Assembly (NCBI RefSeq): GCF_003362725.1 | Contig: NZ_QKTV01000003.1 | Location: 186,001 to 250,000, forward strand | Length of the DNA: 64,000 bases | From: Winogradskyella aurantiaca | GTDB taxonomy: Bacteria > Bacteroidota > Bacteroidia > Flavobacteriales > Flavobacteriaceae | Direction: 5' to 3' | Shown: positions 28,516-34,006 of the stretch, one piece after another | How positions within the stretch are numbered: position 1 is the stretch's first letter | Layout: each line of letters starts with the position of its first letter | Made by a program: the position numbers and the translations under genes | Notes under the pieces: model-generated | The model's database searches: none | Told to the model about the DNA's origin: nothing | The model's input: the letters and a program-made list of their open reading frames with translations, nothing else

Positions 28516-29232
28516 TTAGTGATTTTGAGGTTTACAAAAGAGGAGCGCTATAGAAAAACTTATATACATGAAGATATTACTAAAAAATAGAATTAAGGGA
28601 CGCAGACGCCGATAACCGGGATCTCTAGGATGGTAATATTCTTCAAAAAAGACAATTGGGGTCACCACCAACCACCAGATAAATAAGGCTCCCAGAACAA
28701 TTAAACTAAACGACCCTTTGAATTCTAAAATCCGATCGTTTGACAAAACATCAACTATATATAATACAACACTAAATAAAACAATAGCACATGCTATTAA
28801 TATTAGACCTACAATAAAGCCATTAAAAAACAGATCTAATTTTGTTGAAATTAAAACGAATGCAATTATTGGAAAGCCAATCATTGTATACTTGATAATA
28901 GTTTTGAACTGTTGATTTTTTAACAATCTGTATATATAGTTAAGCACAAGCAGCACCCCAAAAACATTCCATGTGAGAGCATACCACCAGTAATTTTTTC
29001 TAAATTTTGATTCTAATATATGAGCCTTAATAGGTTCAAGAAAATCAAACTCTAATAAGTATGTCGGATAACTAGCAACCACTTCTATTAGTAAAACAAA
29101 CCACAAATAGTATATAAAAAACCGGGTGTTGAAATTCCGATGGTTTCGAAAGACCAATAATCCAATAAGGGAGCATAAAATTATGACTCCCTTTGTAAGA
29201 ATAGTATAGTTCTTAAGTATAAAATCTGTCAA
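28516..29232 (-). CDS. Polytopic membrane protein of unknown function
   Basis: 238 residues with about seven hydrophobic segments of membrane-spanning length and almost no soluble loops. The start is TTG 29232; no ATG is available in a sensible place. Sequence gives no recognised family motif; residues EEYYHPRDPGYRRLRP form a polar loop before the final segment. It stands between a small soluble protein (upstream, 8-nt gap) and a sensor kinase (downstream), suggesting a membrane sensor or input module for the kinase. This role is inference only. Confidence 0.65.
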   Translation of the reverse strand: MTDFILKNYTILTKGVIILCSLIGLLVFRNHRNFNTRFFIYYLWFVLLIEVVASYPTYLLEFDFLEPIKAHILESKFRKNYWWYALTWNVFGVLLVLNYIYRLLKNQQFKTIIKYTMIGFPIIAFVLISTKLDLFFNGFIVGLILIACAIVLFSVVLYIVDVLSNDRILEFKGSFSLIVLGALFIWWLVVTPIVFFEEYYHPRDPGYRRLRPLILFFSNIFMYISFSIALLFCKPQNH

Positions 29233-29240
29233 TTTATAAA

Positions 29241-29636
29241 CTATTGTGGATAATTGGCACCTGGAGGATCACCTGGATCGCTGAAATTTAATCCATCAGC
29301 GCCTTGTATGTCTGGGTGATCATCACCATTTCCATCTTTACCCAAGCTATTTTCCGAGGTTGGAATTAAAAAAACAGTTGAATAGCCGCCTTTATCATTT
29401 TCGGTTTTATAGGCACCATTGTAAATTCTAATCCCACTAAGCTCCACCTTAAACTTATTTTTAGCTTGAGCCTTGGCATGGGTAATGTAGGCCTCTAATT
29501 CTTCAATTGAAAACCAATTGGAACGGTTATCATCTCGTTTTGTTATATCACGCGATACTAAATTATAACGCTGTGAGTAATTAGTATCAAGCTCTTTGGC
29601 TTGATCTGGGGTAATTAACCCTTTAATTTTTGACAT
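29241..29636 (-). CDS. Small soluble protein of unknown function
   Basis: A 131-residue protein without signal peptide. The N-terminal part is helical (LITPDQAKELDTNYSQRYNLVSRDI), the middle shows beta strands (KVELSGIRIYNGAYKTE), and the tail is Gly/Asp/Pro-rich and ends PPGANYPQ. Similar small proteins with this tail are familiar in flavobacterial genomes, but no function is known to me. It is the first gene of a three-gene minus-strand group with the membrane protein and the histidine kinase. Confidence 0.65.
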   Translation of the reverse strand: MSKIKGLITPDQAKELDTNYSQRYNLVSRDITKRDDNRSNWFSIEELEAYITHAKAQAKNKFKVELSGIRIYNGAYKTENDKGGYSTVFLIPTSENSLGKDGNGDDHPDIQGADGLNFSDPGDPPGANYPQ

Positions 29637-29697
29637 GCTTTTTGTAAATTTTGGTTAATAAAAGTCTAAAGTAACCATATTTTTCTACTTATCTTTC

Positions 29698-30543
29698 TTA
29701 CAAATTAAGCGCTAATCTGAAATGTTTACCGGGTTGAATTTGACACAATTTATTCAATTCCTCTTTTGGGATATAAAGTACTCTTGGATAGCCACCAGTA
29801 GATTGTCCATCGCGCATTAAACAGATAAATCTCCCTTCTGGTGTCCATTGAATCATGCCCGGAATTATGGGGGCGGTTACTATTGTGTGATCATGAGGCC
29901 ATAAAGGATGTTCTAGTATATAGGCCATGCGATTACTTTGATGGTCTATACTAAATTCTATTTTAGAAAGGTTGGCTTGCAACCCTTTTGGCAATGATTT
30001 AAATTCAGGTCCAGCTTGAACTTCTATTCTATTTAAGGTGTCAGAAAAATTCGTGATTCGCAGTCTTGAATTTGATGAACTTGATAATGGCAGTAGTTCA
30101 GTTTGAATTACATCACCAGCCTTTAATTTTGCAGTCTTTGTTATGCTGGAATATTGACTTTGACTCCCCAATACCTGCTCTGTTAAAACCCTAGCCTGAA
30201 TGCCCAAATAGCTCCACACTCCTTCTTCTATCTTTGTTATCACTAGTTCATCCCCTTCACTGACTGCAATCATTTGGTTGATGGACAATTTATTTCCATT
30301 CAGATAAGCCTCAACCTGAGCTCCACATAAAGCTAACTGATAATCTTGATGAAACTTTAAATGCAGTCCTGTAAAAGCAGCCTCAATTAAAGCTGAACCT
30401 GATTCCTTACCAACAAGCTTATTAGCCAACTCAGCAGAAAAGGCATCCATAAACCCGGATACTGGCACTCCCAGGTGTCTAAAACCAAACCTACCATTAT
30501 CTTGAATGGAACTGTAAATACCAGGATTTATTACTTCTATCAC
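29698..30543 (-). CDS. pxpC: 5-Oxoprolinase subunit PxpC (KipA-like)
   Basis: Member of the biotin-dependent carboxyltransferase-like family; with PxpA and PxpB it forms the prokaryotic ATP-dependent 5-oxoprolinase that opens pyroglutamate to glutamate. Recognised by IQDNGRFGFRHLGVPVSGFMD at the N-terminus and MRDGQSTGGYPRVL near the end. The start is GTG 30543, overlapping the pxpB stop by four bases. Last gene of the operon. Confidence 0.93.
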   Translation of the reverse strand: MIEVINPGIYSSIQDNGRFGFRHLGVPVSGFMDAFSAELANKLVGKESGSALIEAAFTGLHLKFHQDYQLALCGAQVEAYLNGNKLSINQMIAVSEGDELVITKIEEGVWSYLGIQARVLTEQVLGSQSQYSSITKTAKLKAGDVIQTELLPLSSSSNSRLRITNFSDTLNRIEVQAGPEFKSLPKGLQANLSKIEFSIDHQSNRMAYILEHPLWPHDHTIVTAPIIPGMIQWTPEGRFICLMRDGQSTGGYPRVLYIPKEELNKLCQIQPGKHFRLALNL

Positions 30544-31280
30544 GCAACAACCTCCTTCCTAATCTGATAATCCTCAATATTTGAAGCTATCCTTTTGAAT
30601 TCATCAATCGTAATGGACTCAAAATGAATAACATCTCCAATCGCGGCAAATACAGGTGGATCTTTATCAATATCAAACAACGAAATTGGTGTCTTTCCAA
30701 TCAAATGCCACCCCCCAGGGCTCTCAGAGGGGTAAATCCCCGTCTGAGCTCCACCAATAGCAACCGACCCTTTTGGAACTCTGGATATAGGTCTTGGCTT
30801 GCGAGCTAAATGCAGACGTTCATCCAAGCCACTCAAATAACAGAATCCAGGAAGAAAGCCAAAAAAATGAATGGAGTAATCAACCGATGTATGTAATCGG
30901 ACAAAGTCCCACAGGCTTAATTGTTTTCCATGACAAAAATCTTCTAGATCAGGTGCATAGTCGGGATGATAGCAAACTGGAATAATCCATTTGGTCACTG
31001 ACCCTTTTTCATGTTGCTTGGTATTTGATATAAGTACTTCTAATTCCTTTAATAGTTGATGGATGCCTTCTGATGACTTAAATACAATCAGAATTTTGGT
31101 ATAACTAGGAATGATGTCCAATATCTGATCACGATAGGCTATTGACAGTTCATGGTAGACACCTTGAAGCTCTTGGAATGTAACCGAGGAAATGTCACAC
31201 GGCCAGGATAATTCAATGGCTTGTTCACCTACAATAGAAATATCAATAGAACGGGAATGCTTCGATTTATCCAATTTCAA
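30540..31280 (-). CDS. pxpB: 5-Oxoprolinase subunit PxpB (KipI-like)
   Basis: Allophanate-hydrolase subunit-1-like protein. The characteristic motif HFFGFLPGFCYLSGLD, then RPISRVPKGSVAIGGAQTGIYPSESPGGW lies at about residues 140-195. Works with PxpC and PxpA in cytosolic 5-oxoproline hydrolysis. The start appears to be TTG 31280, overlapping pxpA by 14 nt. The KipI name refers to the Bacillus kinase inhibitor; here the complete PxpABC set indicates the metabolic role. Confidence 0.93.
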   Translation of the reverse strand: MKLDKSKHSRSIDISIVGEQAIELSWPCDISSVTFQELQGVYHELSIAYRDQILDIIPSYTKILIVFKSSEGIHQLLKELEVLISNTKQHEKGSVTKWIIPVCYHPDYAPDLEDFCHGKQLSLWDFVRLHTSVDYSIHFFGFLPGFCYLSGLDERLHLARKPRPISRVPKGSVAIGGAQTGIYPSESPGGWHLIGKTPISLFDIDKDPPVFAAIGDVIHFESITIDEFKRIASNIEDYQIRKEVVA

Positions 31281-31995
31281 TTCCTTTAGAATTTAAATCT
31301 TCAGATAATTGTCTTATTAAAAACTCCGCATTAGGGCTATCGCTATGCATGCATATGGTTTTAGCTTTAATGGCTATCCAGTTATGATTGATACTCTTAA
31401 CGCGATTGTTAGTGATGATTTCCAATATATGATCTAAAATCTGATTTGATTCCAAAATCAAAGCCTGATCATTTACTCTTGACACTAAAGTTAGATCGTC
31501 ATTGTAGTTTCTATCAGCGAAGGCTTCCAAAACAACCCTTAAATCATAATGTTTTGCTACTTGTGAGAGCACAGATTTATAAGGAGCATATATAGGAACA
31601 TTTAATTCCTCTTTAACCACTTCTGCAAAGAGTGAGGCCGTAGAAATATCTTTGGCCGCTAAATTATACAAAGCACCATGAGCTTTAACATGATTTATGG
31701 GACAATCGTTATCTGCAGCAACCTTAGCAAAATCCAATAGCTGCTTTCGAAGAGACGATTTTAAGTCGGTAGGGTTAATATCGATGACTTTTCGACCAAA
31801 ATTAGATTTATCAGGAAAAGACGGATGCGCTCCTATTTTTACATTATGTGAATTGGCTAGCCTTATAACGCTAGCTATAGATTCATAAGTTCCCGCATGT
31901 CCGCCGCAGGCAATATTACAGGAAGATATATATGGAAATAATTGAGCTTCATTATTCATTCCTTCACCCACATCCATGTTTAAGTCGATTACCAT
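31267..31995 (-). CDS. pxpA: 5-Oxoprolinase subunit PxpA (LamB/YcsF family)
   Basis: The N-terminus IDLNMDVGEGMNNEAQLFPYISSCNIACGGHAG is the family signature, including the conserved Asp and His residues of the (beta/alpha) barrel; later VKAHGALYNLAA and the C-terminal ICMHSDSPNA are also conserved. 242 residues, full length. It starts 7 nt after the transporter gene, giving a transporter-pxpA-pxpB-pxpC operon that imports and hydrolyses 5-oxoproline or a related lactam. Confidence 0.95.
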   Translation of the reverse strand: MVIDLNMDVGEGMNNEAQLFPYISSCNIACGGHAGTYESIASVIRLANSHNVKIGAHPSFPDKSNFGRKVIDINPTDLKSSLRKQLLDFAKVAADNDCPINHVKAHGALYNLAAKDISTASLFAEVVKEELNVPIYAPYKSVLSQVAKHYDLRVVLEAFADRNYNDDLTLVSRVNDQALILESNQILDHILEIITNNRVKSINHNWIAIKAKTICMHSDSPNAEFLIRQLSEDLNSKGIEIG

Positions 31996-32002
31996 TGTAA
32001 TA

Positions 32003-33223
32003 TTAAAATAGATTTATAAGAATTCTATAACTTAAGGCGAGAGTGATAAGAAATACAAGTAGACCAACTATGTTTTGAAATACTGTATTCGTAAACTTCC
32101 CCAGAATTAGCTTTTTATTCATAACCCAAATCAAAATAAGTGCTATTATCGGAAGAAAAACTCCATTAGCCACTTGGGCAAATGTTATTAGTACTATTGG
32201 TTTTAGATTAAATGTAGCCACTACGGTTCCAAATATCAAAACCACTTTCCATACCATTTTGTATAGTTTATCCCCTGAGGTTTCAGATTGCCCAAACAAA
32301 CCAGACACTACAAAAGCCGCTGCCAAAGGTGCGGTAATAGCACTAGTCAAGCCCGCTGCAAACAACCCCATTCCCATCAAATGTTTAGCAGTAACACCAA
32401 AAATTGGCTCTAAAGCCATGGCTAAATCAGAACCCGATTTCACAGTATCAAGATTAACACTTGCCGCTGCTACAACAACAGCCATGGAAACGAATCCACC
32501 CAAAATAACAGCCAAAAAGGTATCAAATCGCGCGTCTCCTAACCCATCGATAGAATTCCATTTTTTGATAACTAGTGCCGAATGAAGGAACAAGTTATAG
32601 GGAACAACCGTTGTTCCAATAAGACCAACCACAACTAAAACAGCATTGCTTGGAAGTTCAAACTGGAATAGGCCAGAGAGTATTCCACTTAATTCCGGTT
32701 TCGTAACCACCGCTGCCGAAACAAATGCAATACTCATCAGTATTACCAGAATTAATAATAGGTTTTGTATCAATTTAAAGGATTCAAAAGAGAGAAGAAT
32801 AAAGGCACTCAGGCCAACGATTAACGATGCAAGGTCTAGCCTAAACCCAAGAACAACTGCGTTTAAATCATTGAAAAATACCTTAAGTCCTAAAGATCCA
32901 CCAGAAACATTGCCCGCTTCATAGGCTGTATTCCCAATGAGAATGGCAGAAAGTACAAGAATAATAATGATCCATTTAAGAACAGGAGTTGTTTTTAATT
33001 CTGAAATGATCTGGGCCAAATCTTTTCTACTTACCAAGCCAAGGCGGGCAGCCATTTCTTGTAAGGAGATGGTAGCTATAATTGATAACAAAAGTGCCCA
33101 TAACAAGCCATATCCAAATCCAACCCCAGCAGAACTGCATAAGGTGATGGTACCAGGACCAATAAATGCAGCAGCAACTAAAGGTCCCGGTCCTATTTTA
33201 TTAAGCCATTTTTTTATATACAT
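32003..33223 (-). CDS. NRAMP-fold transporter lacking the canonical metal site
   Basis: An eleven-helix LeuT-fold protein of the NRAMP (SLC11) family. Conserved framework motifs are seen, e.g. IGPGPLVAAAFI before TM1 and NLFLHSALV in TM6. But the metal-coordinating TM1 motif DPGN reads GPGT and the TM6 motif MPH reads VPY, so all the main manganese/iron ligands are gone. It is the first gene of the 5-oxoprolinase operon, which suggests an organic substrate rather than a metal. I use ATG 33223; a TTG at 33256 would add 11 residues. Confidence 0.88.
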   Translation of the reverse strand: MYIKKWLNKIGPGPLVAAAFIGPGTITLCSSAGVGFGYGLLWALLLSIIATISLQEMAARLGLVSRKDLAQIISELKTTPVLKWIIIILVLSAILIGNTAYEAGNVSGGSLGLKVFFNDLNAVVLGFRLDLASLIVGLSAFILLSFESFKLIQNLLLILVILMSIAFVSAAVVTKPELSGILSGLFQFELPSNAVLVVVGLIGTTVVPYNLFLHSALVIKKWNSIDGLGDARFDTFLAVILGGFVSMAVVVAAASVNLDTVKSGSDLAMALEPIFGVTAKHLMGMGLFAAGLTSAITAPLAAAFVVSGLFGQSETSGDKLYKMVWKVVLIFGTVVATFNLKPIVLITFAQVANGVFLPIIALILIWVMNKKLILGKFTNTVFQNIVGLLVFLITLALSYRILINLF

Positions 33224-33331
33224 CGATTCAAATGATGCTAAAATTAAACGTTTCAATTAAATTCTAAGAGAATTGATGGTCTTGCAATAGAAATTTTTAT
33301 CTTTCGGCGTAACCTTCAATAATAATATTAT

Positions 33332-34006
33332 ATGAATCGATATTTAAAACCTCTAGCCCTAATATGCTTTTTAACTTTAGTCAGTTGTGGAAGCGGCATA
33401 AAAGTATTGGATGCCTGGCGTTCACCTGACGCTGCTGGTGCTAGTTCTGGACATTGGTTAATTGTAGCAAGAACTCTTGATGAAACTGCTAGAATTGCTT
33501 TTGAAAGAGAAATTGCAGATGCCTTAATAGCTAGGGGTGCCAATGCTACACCGAGTTATAGCAAGTTTCCGCCCTTTGACCCGGACGCTGAAATGACAGA
33601 AGAACGAAGAAATATGATTCTTCAAATATTAGATGACGAAGGCTTTGATAACATTGTGGTAACCTCCCTAAAAGATGAAAGAGAGCGCACCACCACAAGA
33701 GGTGGTTATTATTACAATGACCCATGGAACATGTATTATCCGGGTTATTATGGCGGATTTAATAGTTATTATTACCATCCCTATCCCTATTATGGTGTGA
33801 CCATTCCAATAGTTGGAGGTCAACCAACAACCTACACTACAAAAACCTATTATTTAGAAACTGTAGCCTTTGATCTTAAGGCCGAGGACAACAATCAACT
33901 TCTCGCTGTGGTTACTACCTCGGTAGAAAATCCAAAAGATGCTTATAAAACAGCCAATAAGTATACAGAGGAGATTTTAAAAGCTTTAGACAAAGAGAAA
34001 AAATAA
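33332..34006 (+). CDS. DUF4136-like lipoprotein
   Basis: 224-residue lipoprotein (lipobox LVSC, Cys19). The body has the mixed alpha/beta appearance of DUF4136-like lipoproteins (EREIADALIARGANA; DDEGFDNIVVTSL). A strongly tyrosine- and glycine-rich insertion (about residues 125-155, with YYYNDPWNMYYPGYYGG) interrupts the domain before the final strands. Function unknown. First gene of the plus-strand envelope block; the next gene follows after 33 nt. Confidence 0.75.
   Translation: MNRYLKPLALICFLTLVSCGSGIKVLDAWRSPDAAGASSGHWLIVARTLDETARIAFEREIADALIARGANATPSYSKFPPFDPDAEMTEERRNMILQILDDEGFDNIVVTSLKDERERTTTRGGYYYNDPWNMYYPGYYGGFNSYYYHPYPYYGVTIPIVGGQPTTYTTKTYYLETVAFDLKAEDNNQLLAVVTTSVENPKDAYKTANKYTEEILKALDKEKK

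Follow-up and report, generated by a model that had tools for sequence, protein, structure and literature searches.

What does a protein of the NRAMP superfamily carry when both of the family's metal-binding motifs are replaced and its gene stands first in a 5-oxoprolinase operon? The question is raised by a locus of Winogradskyella aurantiaca lying within a stretch of 64,000 nucleotides of contig NZ_QKTV01000003.1, hereafter the window (Table 1). A preliminary description, made from the sequence alone, had proposed a carrier that has moved from metals to an organic acid, possibly 5-oxoproline.

Table 1. Features of the transporter locus, in window positions.
Feature	Position	Strand	Remarks
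NRAMP-fold transporter, group II	32003..33223	-	GPGT in TM1, VPY in TM6; possible TTG start 33256
TM1 motif region AAFIGPGTITLC	33137..33172	-	residues 29-40, numbered from TTG start
TM6 motif region TTVVPYNLFLH	32582..32614	-	residues 215-225, numbered from TTG start
pxpA (LamB/YcsF family, PF03746), 5-oxoprolinase subunit	31267..31995	-	
pxpB (CT_C_D family, PF02682), 5-oxoprolinase subunit	30540..31280	-	
pxpC (CT_A_B family, PF02626), 5-oxoprolinase subunit	29698..30543	-	

An NRAMP-fold protein without the metal-binding motifs

The transporter open reading frame covers positions 32003-33256 of the minus strand from a TTG start and encodes 417 amino acids, with an in-frame ATG at 33223. 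Its product scores 250.5 bits against the Pfam profile of the NRAMP superfamily (PF01566; gathering score 29.8) and 88.8 bits against the NCBIfam model NF037982, "Nramp family divalent metal transporter" (cut-off 50), so annotation pipelines would name it a metal transporter, as had been anticipated. In TM1, G33 and T36 occupy the positions of Asp and Asn in metal carriers (GPGT vs DPGN); in TM6, V218 and Y220 occupy those of Met and His (VPY vs MPH); and N116 stands in TM3 where 38/38 canonical sequences have Glu. In sequence, the protein thus has none of the three marks of canonical NRAMP (SLC11) carriers, DPGN, MPH and the TM3 glutamate, and G33 and Y220 stand in place of the TM1 Asp and TM6 Trp of the NRMT type. 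The replacement of both metal motifs within a conserved NRAMP framework, noted in the preliminary description, is therefore borne out by the motifs and by the Pfam score. As regards the coupling ion, residues A301, T304 and S305 in TM8 may resemble the sodium site of LeuT.

An AlphaFold model built from 47 sequences (pLDDT 88.5) predicts an NRAMP/LeuT fold, with the break of TM1 near residues 32-33 and that of TM6 at 218. In fold searches this model is closest to NRAMP structures, among them the canonical DraNramp (Z 48.2, with 369 residues superposed at rmsd 2.3). It also matches the magnesium transporter EleNRMT, likewise an NRAMP-related protein with a changed site (Z 45.4, 26% identity), and the amino-acid carriers ApcT and AdiC (Z 29.8).

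The transporter gene leads the pxp operon

As had been described, the transporter gene heads a pxpA-pxpB-pxpC operon: all four genes lie on the same strand, with a gap of 7 nt between the transporter gene and pxpA followed by overlaps of 14 and 4 nt. PxpA, PxpB and PxpC all pass their Pfam cut-offs, and a full PxpABC set is therefore present. Of the NCBIfam cut-offs only that of PxpB is passed (151.5 vs 145.55 bits); PxpA and PxpC fall short of the cut-offs of their best models, which indicates that these two subunits are divergent members. Scans of positions 29000-33500 for promoters (17 predictions vs 16.3 in shuffled sequences) and terminators (3 vs 3.2) gave results at about chance level. 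Directly downstream of pxpC, a 131-residue open reading frame (29241-29636, minus strand) has no match in Pfam or NCBIfam at E <= 0.001.

The motif pair defines a clade

We refer to the clade defined by the GPGT/VPY motif pair (G33, T36, V218 and Y220) as group II. Two samples were surveyed, 60 near genomes and 99 genomes spread across Bacteroidota, and in these the group II members share 34-53% identity with the window protein; the closest relative among named loci, L128, reaches 57%. Once re-fetched copies were removed, 153 group II rows gave 132 distinct cores. Besides the four group-defining positions, T215, N364, Q361 and S305 are found in 132/132 of these cores and N116 in 131/132. In the 38 canonical sequences positions 116, 215 and 364 are occupied by E, A and L, and Q361 and S305 are as in group II. 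All 38 differ from it at the DPGN, MPH and TM3 glutamate positions and at position 364 (Leu vs Asn), so that canonical NRAMP/SLC11 carriers such as MntH and DMT1 combine DPGN, MPH, Glu and Leu where group II has GPGT, VPY, Asn and Asn. Unlike group II, NRMT-like (DAGG) sequences have Asp at 33, Glu at 116 and Trp at 220 (11/11). Of 53 further regions fetched from the 99-genome sample, for which no locus had been returned, 52 could be aligned and none carries GPGT/VPY, the types met being DPGN/MPH, DAGG/APW, DPSG/SPY, GTGS and a few odd ones. Group II was found in 2/185 gammaproteobacterial genomes (E <= 1e-40), and the 33 pattern matches on viral contigs include no relative of the transporter. 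These data establish group II as a real, clade-wide feature and not an oddity of one genome. Nearly all annotated plasmid records in our listing name these proteins metal transporters.

The window genome encodes a second, very remote NRAMP-like protein (G000:C20:41218-42354, locus L002; 59.8 bits against PF01566), with IGVSH in TM1 and PAPID in TM6. Its neighbours resemble, by eye, lipoyl synthase and sigma factor genes.

Group II genes occur in genomes that encode an oxoprolinase

In the 99 Bacteroidota genomes, 25 carry group II and all 25 encode an oxoprolinase, which is of the PxpABC type in 18 (scored by PxpA), of the HyuA/HyuB type in 7 (scored by Hydantoinase_B) and of both types together in none. 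An oxoprolinase is found in 11/74 of the genomes devoid of group II (3 by PxpA, 8 by Hydantoinase_B), a difference with a Fisher p of 3.3e-15, the kinship of the genomes being uncorrected. The enzyme adjoins the group II gene in 20 of the 25 genomes (14 pxp, 6 HyuA/HyuB) and is encoded elsewhere in the other 5. As a control, oxoprolinase was counted against canonical NRAMP: it is present in 5/32 genomes with a canonical gene vs 31/67 without. The preliminary description had tied its proposal to a genomic association of the GPGT/VPY variant with pxp genes; such an association is found, both in the 14 genomes in which pxp genes adjoin group II and in the overall distribution of the enzymes (25/25 vs 11/74).

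The same picture is obtained from the other samples. Among the loci returned for the 60 near genomes, a count that leaves aside weaker matches without loci, 20 of 21 group II genes have pxp genes alongside, and the genome of the remaining one (locus L023) has pxpA elsewhere. In the best 80 of at least 589 candidate named loci, which are the best-scoring rather than a random set and in part repeat genomes of the 60-genome sample, so that the two counts are not to be summed, 67 group II genes adjoin pxp genes, 7 adjoin HyuA/HyuB and 6 adjoin neither; pxpA is present elsewhere in the genomes of all 6. On plasmids, HyuA-HyuB lies directly downstream in 22 of 25 group II records, all 22 haloarchaeal; the three others are from Pseudoalteromonas, Natrononativus and Qipengyuania. 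These 25 records come from 100 matched, 34 of which were listed, the lower-ranked ones having <28% identity; two lower-ranked records, L064 and L066, are both canonical.

No oxoprolinase lies alongside the plasmid copies L062, L065 and L283, as judged from the loci, nor within the 1.5 kb flanks of the gammaproteobacterial gene L273. L283, from a Qipengyuania citrea plasmid, belongs to a VPYNLFLG subtype, and the annotation of the surrounding 4.2 kb shows no oxoprolinase. The group II gene of L248 is unlinked, yet its genome has two pxpA genes. In Pseudoalteromonas the group II gene is found away from pxp genes (L071, L078, L120 and the plasmid locus L062); the three genomes searched in this genus all have pxpA elsewhere. 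In L128 (4866-7212) the transporter gene and a DUF2891 gene share 8 nt, and pxpABC is on another contig. No common theme emerges from the genes around four unlinked group II members (L128, L269 and, in part, L151-L153). Locus L271 (genome G010) has two tandem NRAMP-like genes, one of which reads GPGS in TM1 and SIV in TM6; by tblastn no oxoprolinase was found within ~6 kb, and pxpA is on another contig of this genome.

The partner enzyme changes within group II

The B part of the second enzyme belongs to PF02538, a family different from those of the three Pxp subunits (PF03746, PF02682 and PF02626). The best tree, built from 42 proteins, requires 4 switches of enzyme type inside group II (4-4 over the 5-95% bootstrap interval); the well-supported branches taken alone force 2. 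The switches are located in the haloarchaea, which nest alongside pxp-linked Bacillota; in a pair of Bacteroidota assemblies that encode a fused enzyme of 1252 residues; and inside a sister group with 34-38% identity. L062, which earlier trees labelled as a case of pxpA elsewhere on the model of other members of its genus, is absent from the 42-protein tree. With partners drawn from different enzyme families and exchanged four times on the best tree, the transporter seems to follow a chemistry, and a carrier that accompanies either set of lactam-opening enzymes is best explained by a shared substrate.

Which lactam this would be depends in part on HyuA/HyuB. For their relatives N-methylhydantoinase is the best match, followed by chains that bear the name 5-oxoprolinase/hydantoinase (6yra) and by carboxylases; the nearest NCBIfam model is caprolactamase, below its cut-off. 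By their names, these matches include enzymes acting on hydantoins and caprolactam; the shared substrate might therefore be a different lactam, and the HyuA/HyuB matches alone do not single out 5-oxoproline. In the haloarchaeal loci L063, L220-L222, L226, L228, L275, L281 and L282 the operon comprises the transporter, HyuA, HyuB and a racemase-family gene, often with a CopG-type regulator upstream. The racemase-family gene is annotated Asp/Glu racemase (maleate isomerase in L222), and in L063 its best NCBIfam matches are arylmalonate decarboxylase and EutA, both under their cut-offs. Group II might accordingly carry some other cyclic amide or amino acid, such as a hydantoin-like ring, D-5-oxoproline or a derivative of proline or glutamine, 5-oxoproline being at most one of several substrates. 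The order of the HyuA/HyuB matches fits such a specificity, as does the racemase-family gene that continues many haloarchaeal operons and suggests a chiral ring or product, but the commoner partner, PxpABC (67 of the best 80 of at least 589 loci), is described as a 5-oxoprolinase (PMC10448178, PMC13274462, citing Niehaus et al. 2017), and we consider such a specificity quite improbable. In the literature searched, which takes in only a minor part of the subscription papers, no paper mentions Nramp together with hydantoinase.

Likeness to and difference from YcsG and PxpT

NRAMP-superfamily proteins encoded in pxp operons, and in this respect like the window protein, have been reported in three species (PMC13274462): YcsG of Bacillus subtilis (also called MntG), PxpT of Corynebacterium glutamicum and PxpG of Clostridioides difficile. 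PxpT, 50% identical to YcsG, is reported to be encoded by the first gene of its operon, to be required for growth on 5-oxoproline and, when expressed alone, to restore growth of its mutant on this compound, its authors leaving metal transport possible (PMC13274462). An earlier 5-oxoproline phenotype of ycsG has been questioned as possibly polar (PMC10448178); the restoration by PxpT alone answers this objection in C. glutamicum, as far as the published account goes. In searches of the same literature on 5-oxoprolinase, 5-oxoproline or pyroglutamate together with Nramp, only these two papers bear on the carrier, by title and abstract.

The YcsG type shares G33, T38, N116, Y220 and N364 with group II (9/9 sequences), a set absent from the 38 canonical sequences, and is unlike it in having GPGF in TM1 and GGY in TM6. 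One GPGF/GGY member was modelled, and its model shares 68% identity with 9a52, the model of YcsG; this type therefore represents the YcsG clade, a placement that rests on identity between models in fold searches. PxpT is provisionally assigned to the same clade through its published 50% identity to YcsG; a search of genome contigs for C. glutamicum pxpT with a stretch of a published primer gave no match. In the tree the 9 YcsG-type sequences group together (SH-aLRT 100), and the window protein falls outside them. Our first assumption, that the window protein is the YcsG/PxpT ortholog, was ruled out by this separation and by the low identity, 21-22% between its model and 9a52 in the fold search and 27% to a YcsG-type protein by BLASTP. 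An AU test did not reject group II and the YcsG type as one clade (p = 0.50), with which either shared descent or convergence would be compatible.

The two clades resemble each other in their genomic surroundings. In the order of Alkalihalobacillus algicola, all seven GPGF/GGY genes read adjoin pxp genes, and 20/25 genes with the YcsG-type profile span lie within 5 kb of pxpA; A. algicola itself, a member of Bacillota, has both transporter types, each with its own pxpABC. Two of the 99 Bacteroidota genomes encode a YcsG-type protein; each has pxpA, adjoining the transporter gene, and neither has group II. These are two of the three pxpA genomes that are devoid of group II, so that 20/21 pxpA genomes of this sample have one or the other type; in the remaining one (G105) neither was found. 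As YcsG and, by its 50% identity, PxpT belong to another clade, their results do not transfer directly to group II. Group II is most likely a new clade of a kind of carrier already reported for the clade of YcsG and PxpT.

The results obtained with PxpT also bear on the direction of transport. The sequence does not fix this direction, and a 5-oxoproline exporter, or a sensor or bystander of the operon, would be compatible with it; but export beside an ATP-consuming ring opener would be wasteful, and PxpT, whose gene likewise heads its operon, is needed by C. glutamicum to grow on 5-oxoproline supplied from outside (PMC13274462). A role other than uptake is thus very improbable.

A possible alternative: metal import through a non-canonical site

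Group II proteins could also import Mn2+ or another metal through a non-canonical site, the link to the oxoprolinase operon then arising from the metal need of the enzymes or from nitrogen metabolism. In the window genome, searches for a canonical NRAMP and for a ZnuA-type binding protein found neither, and in the 99-genome sample a canonical NRAMP is present in 2/25 group II genomes vs 30/74 others (p = 0.0026, kinship uncorrected). A metal role would predict this avoidance and this absence likewise. PxpB/PxpC-like proteins are frequently annotated as allophanate hydrolase and urea carboxylase. An operon that pairs proteins of these names with an NRAMP might therefore serve 5-oxoproline. In Acinetobacter baumannii proteins so named are paired with an NRAMP in the operon mumT, mumL, mumU, mumH, mumC, which has been interpreted in terms of Mn and urea metabolism; deletion of mumT, of whichever NRAMP clade, is reported to lower cellular Mn, with complementation (PMC5050338). 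For B. subtilis it is reported that overexpression of YcsG raised cellular Mn, that an mntH mntA ycsG triple mutant could be obtained only with a second ycsG copy and that MntR bound the promoter of the ycsG operon (PMC10448178); YcsG, however, belongs to another clade. At the sequence level Asp, Asn, Met and His are all missing from the DPGN/MPH positions (G33, T36, V218 and Y220, by which the group is defined), and in 131/132 distinct cores Asn stands in place of the TM3 glutamate; residues from elsewhere in the fold might still act as metal ligands. Metal supply, moreover, leaves unexplained why group II is restricted, in the 99-genome sample, to genomes with lactam-opening enzymes. We therefore regard metal import by group II as unlikely.

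Direction of change

A preprint describes "Nramp-related" groups, of the same superfamily as group II and equally devoid of DPGN/MPH, as paraphyletic to the canonical carriers in every tree that it sampled (PMC12873925), and NRAMP-related proteins without the metal motifs have been treated as an outgroup (PMC9606685). In the preprint the "G-motif 3" group contains MntG, the other groups except the NRMT-like one are termed entirely uncharacterized, and "oxoprolin" does not occur in the main text. The reported paraphyly and outgroup use make it more likely that the ligands were gained by the metal carriers than lost here. The proposal of the preliminary description thus stands in part: the protein is devoid of the metal motifs and tied to 5-oxoproline chemistry, but a carrier that has "moved from metals" is probably the wrong way round.

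A wider reading would be that the organic-acid site shared with YcsG/PxpT (G33, T38, N116, Y220 and N364) preceded the metal site, and that metal carriers arose from organic-acid carriers. Group II would then be a second family of dedicated 5-oxoproline carriers, present in bacteria and haloarchaea, that retains its substrate while unrelated oxoprolinases are swapped in the genomes, and the Mn phenotypes of YcsG, and perhaps MumT, would be indirect. We put this forward as a tentative proposal, possible but more doubtful than not.

Discussion

Group II proteins are devoid of DPGN and MPH, have the NRAMP/LeuT fold in a confident model of the window protein, are encoded with pxpABC in this operon and are partnered with two oxoprolinase families. 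From these features we infer, with a probability of roughly seven in ten, that they are LeuT-fold secondary transporters importing 5-oxoproline (pyroglutamate), or a close small cyclic amide, for ring opening. The enzyme that opens the imported ring would be ATP-dependent and encoded in the same genome: PxpABC in the window, HyuA/HyuB or the fused form in other lineages. The uncharged break of TM1 (GPGT), together with Y220 in TM6, N116 in TM3 and N364 in TM10, may receive the carboxylate and the amide of the substrate. TM1 glycine motifs serve such a role in amino-acid carriers of the APC superfamily.

The metal-transporter names given to these proteins in NCBIfam and in plasmid records mislead the modelling of how metals and nitrogen are used. 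For the YcsG/PxpT type the literature is split between Mn2+ and 5-oxoproline, and group II provides a separate clade for deciding between them, made useful for this question by its different enzyme partners in several lineages. Should 5-oxoproline prove to be the substrate of both clades, the question of how NRAMP proteins became selective for metals could be approached through a tractable comparison of sites.
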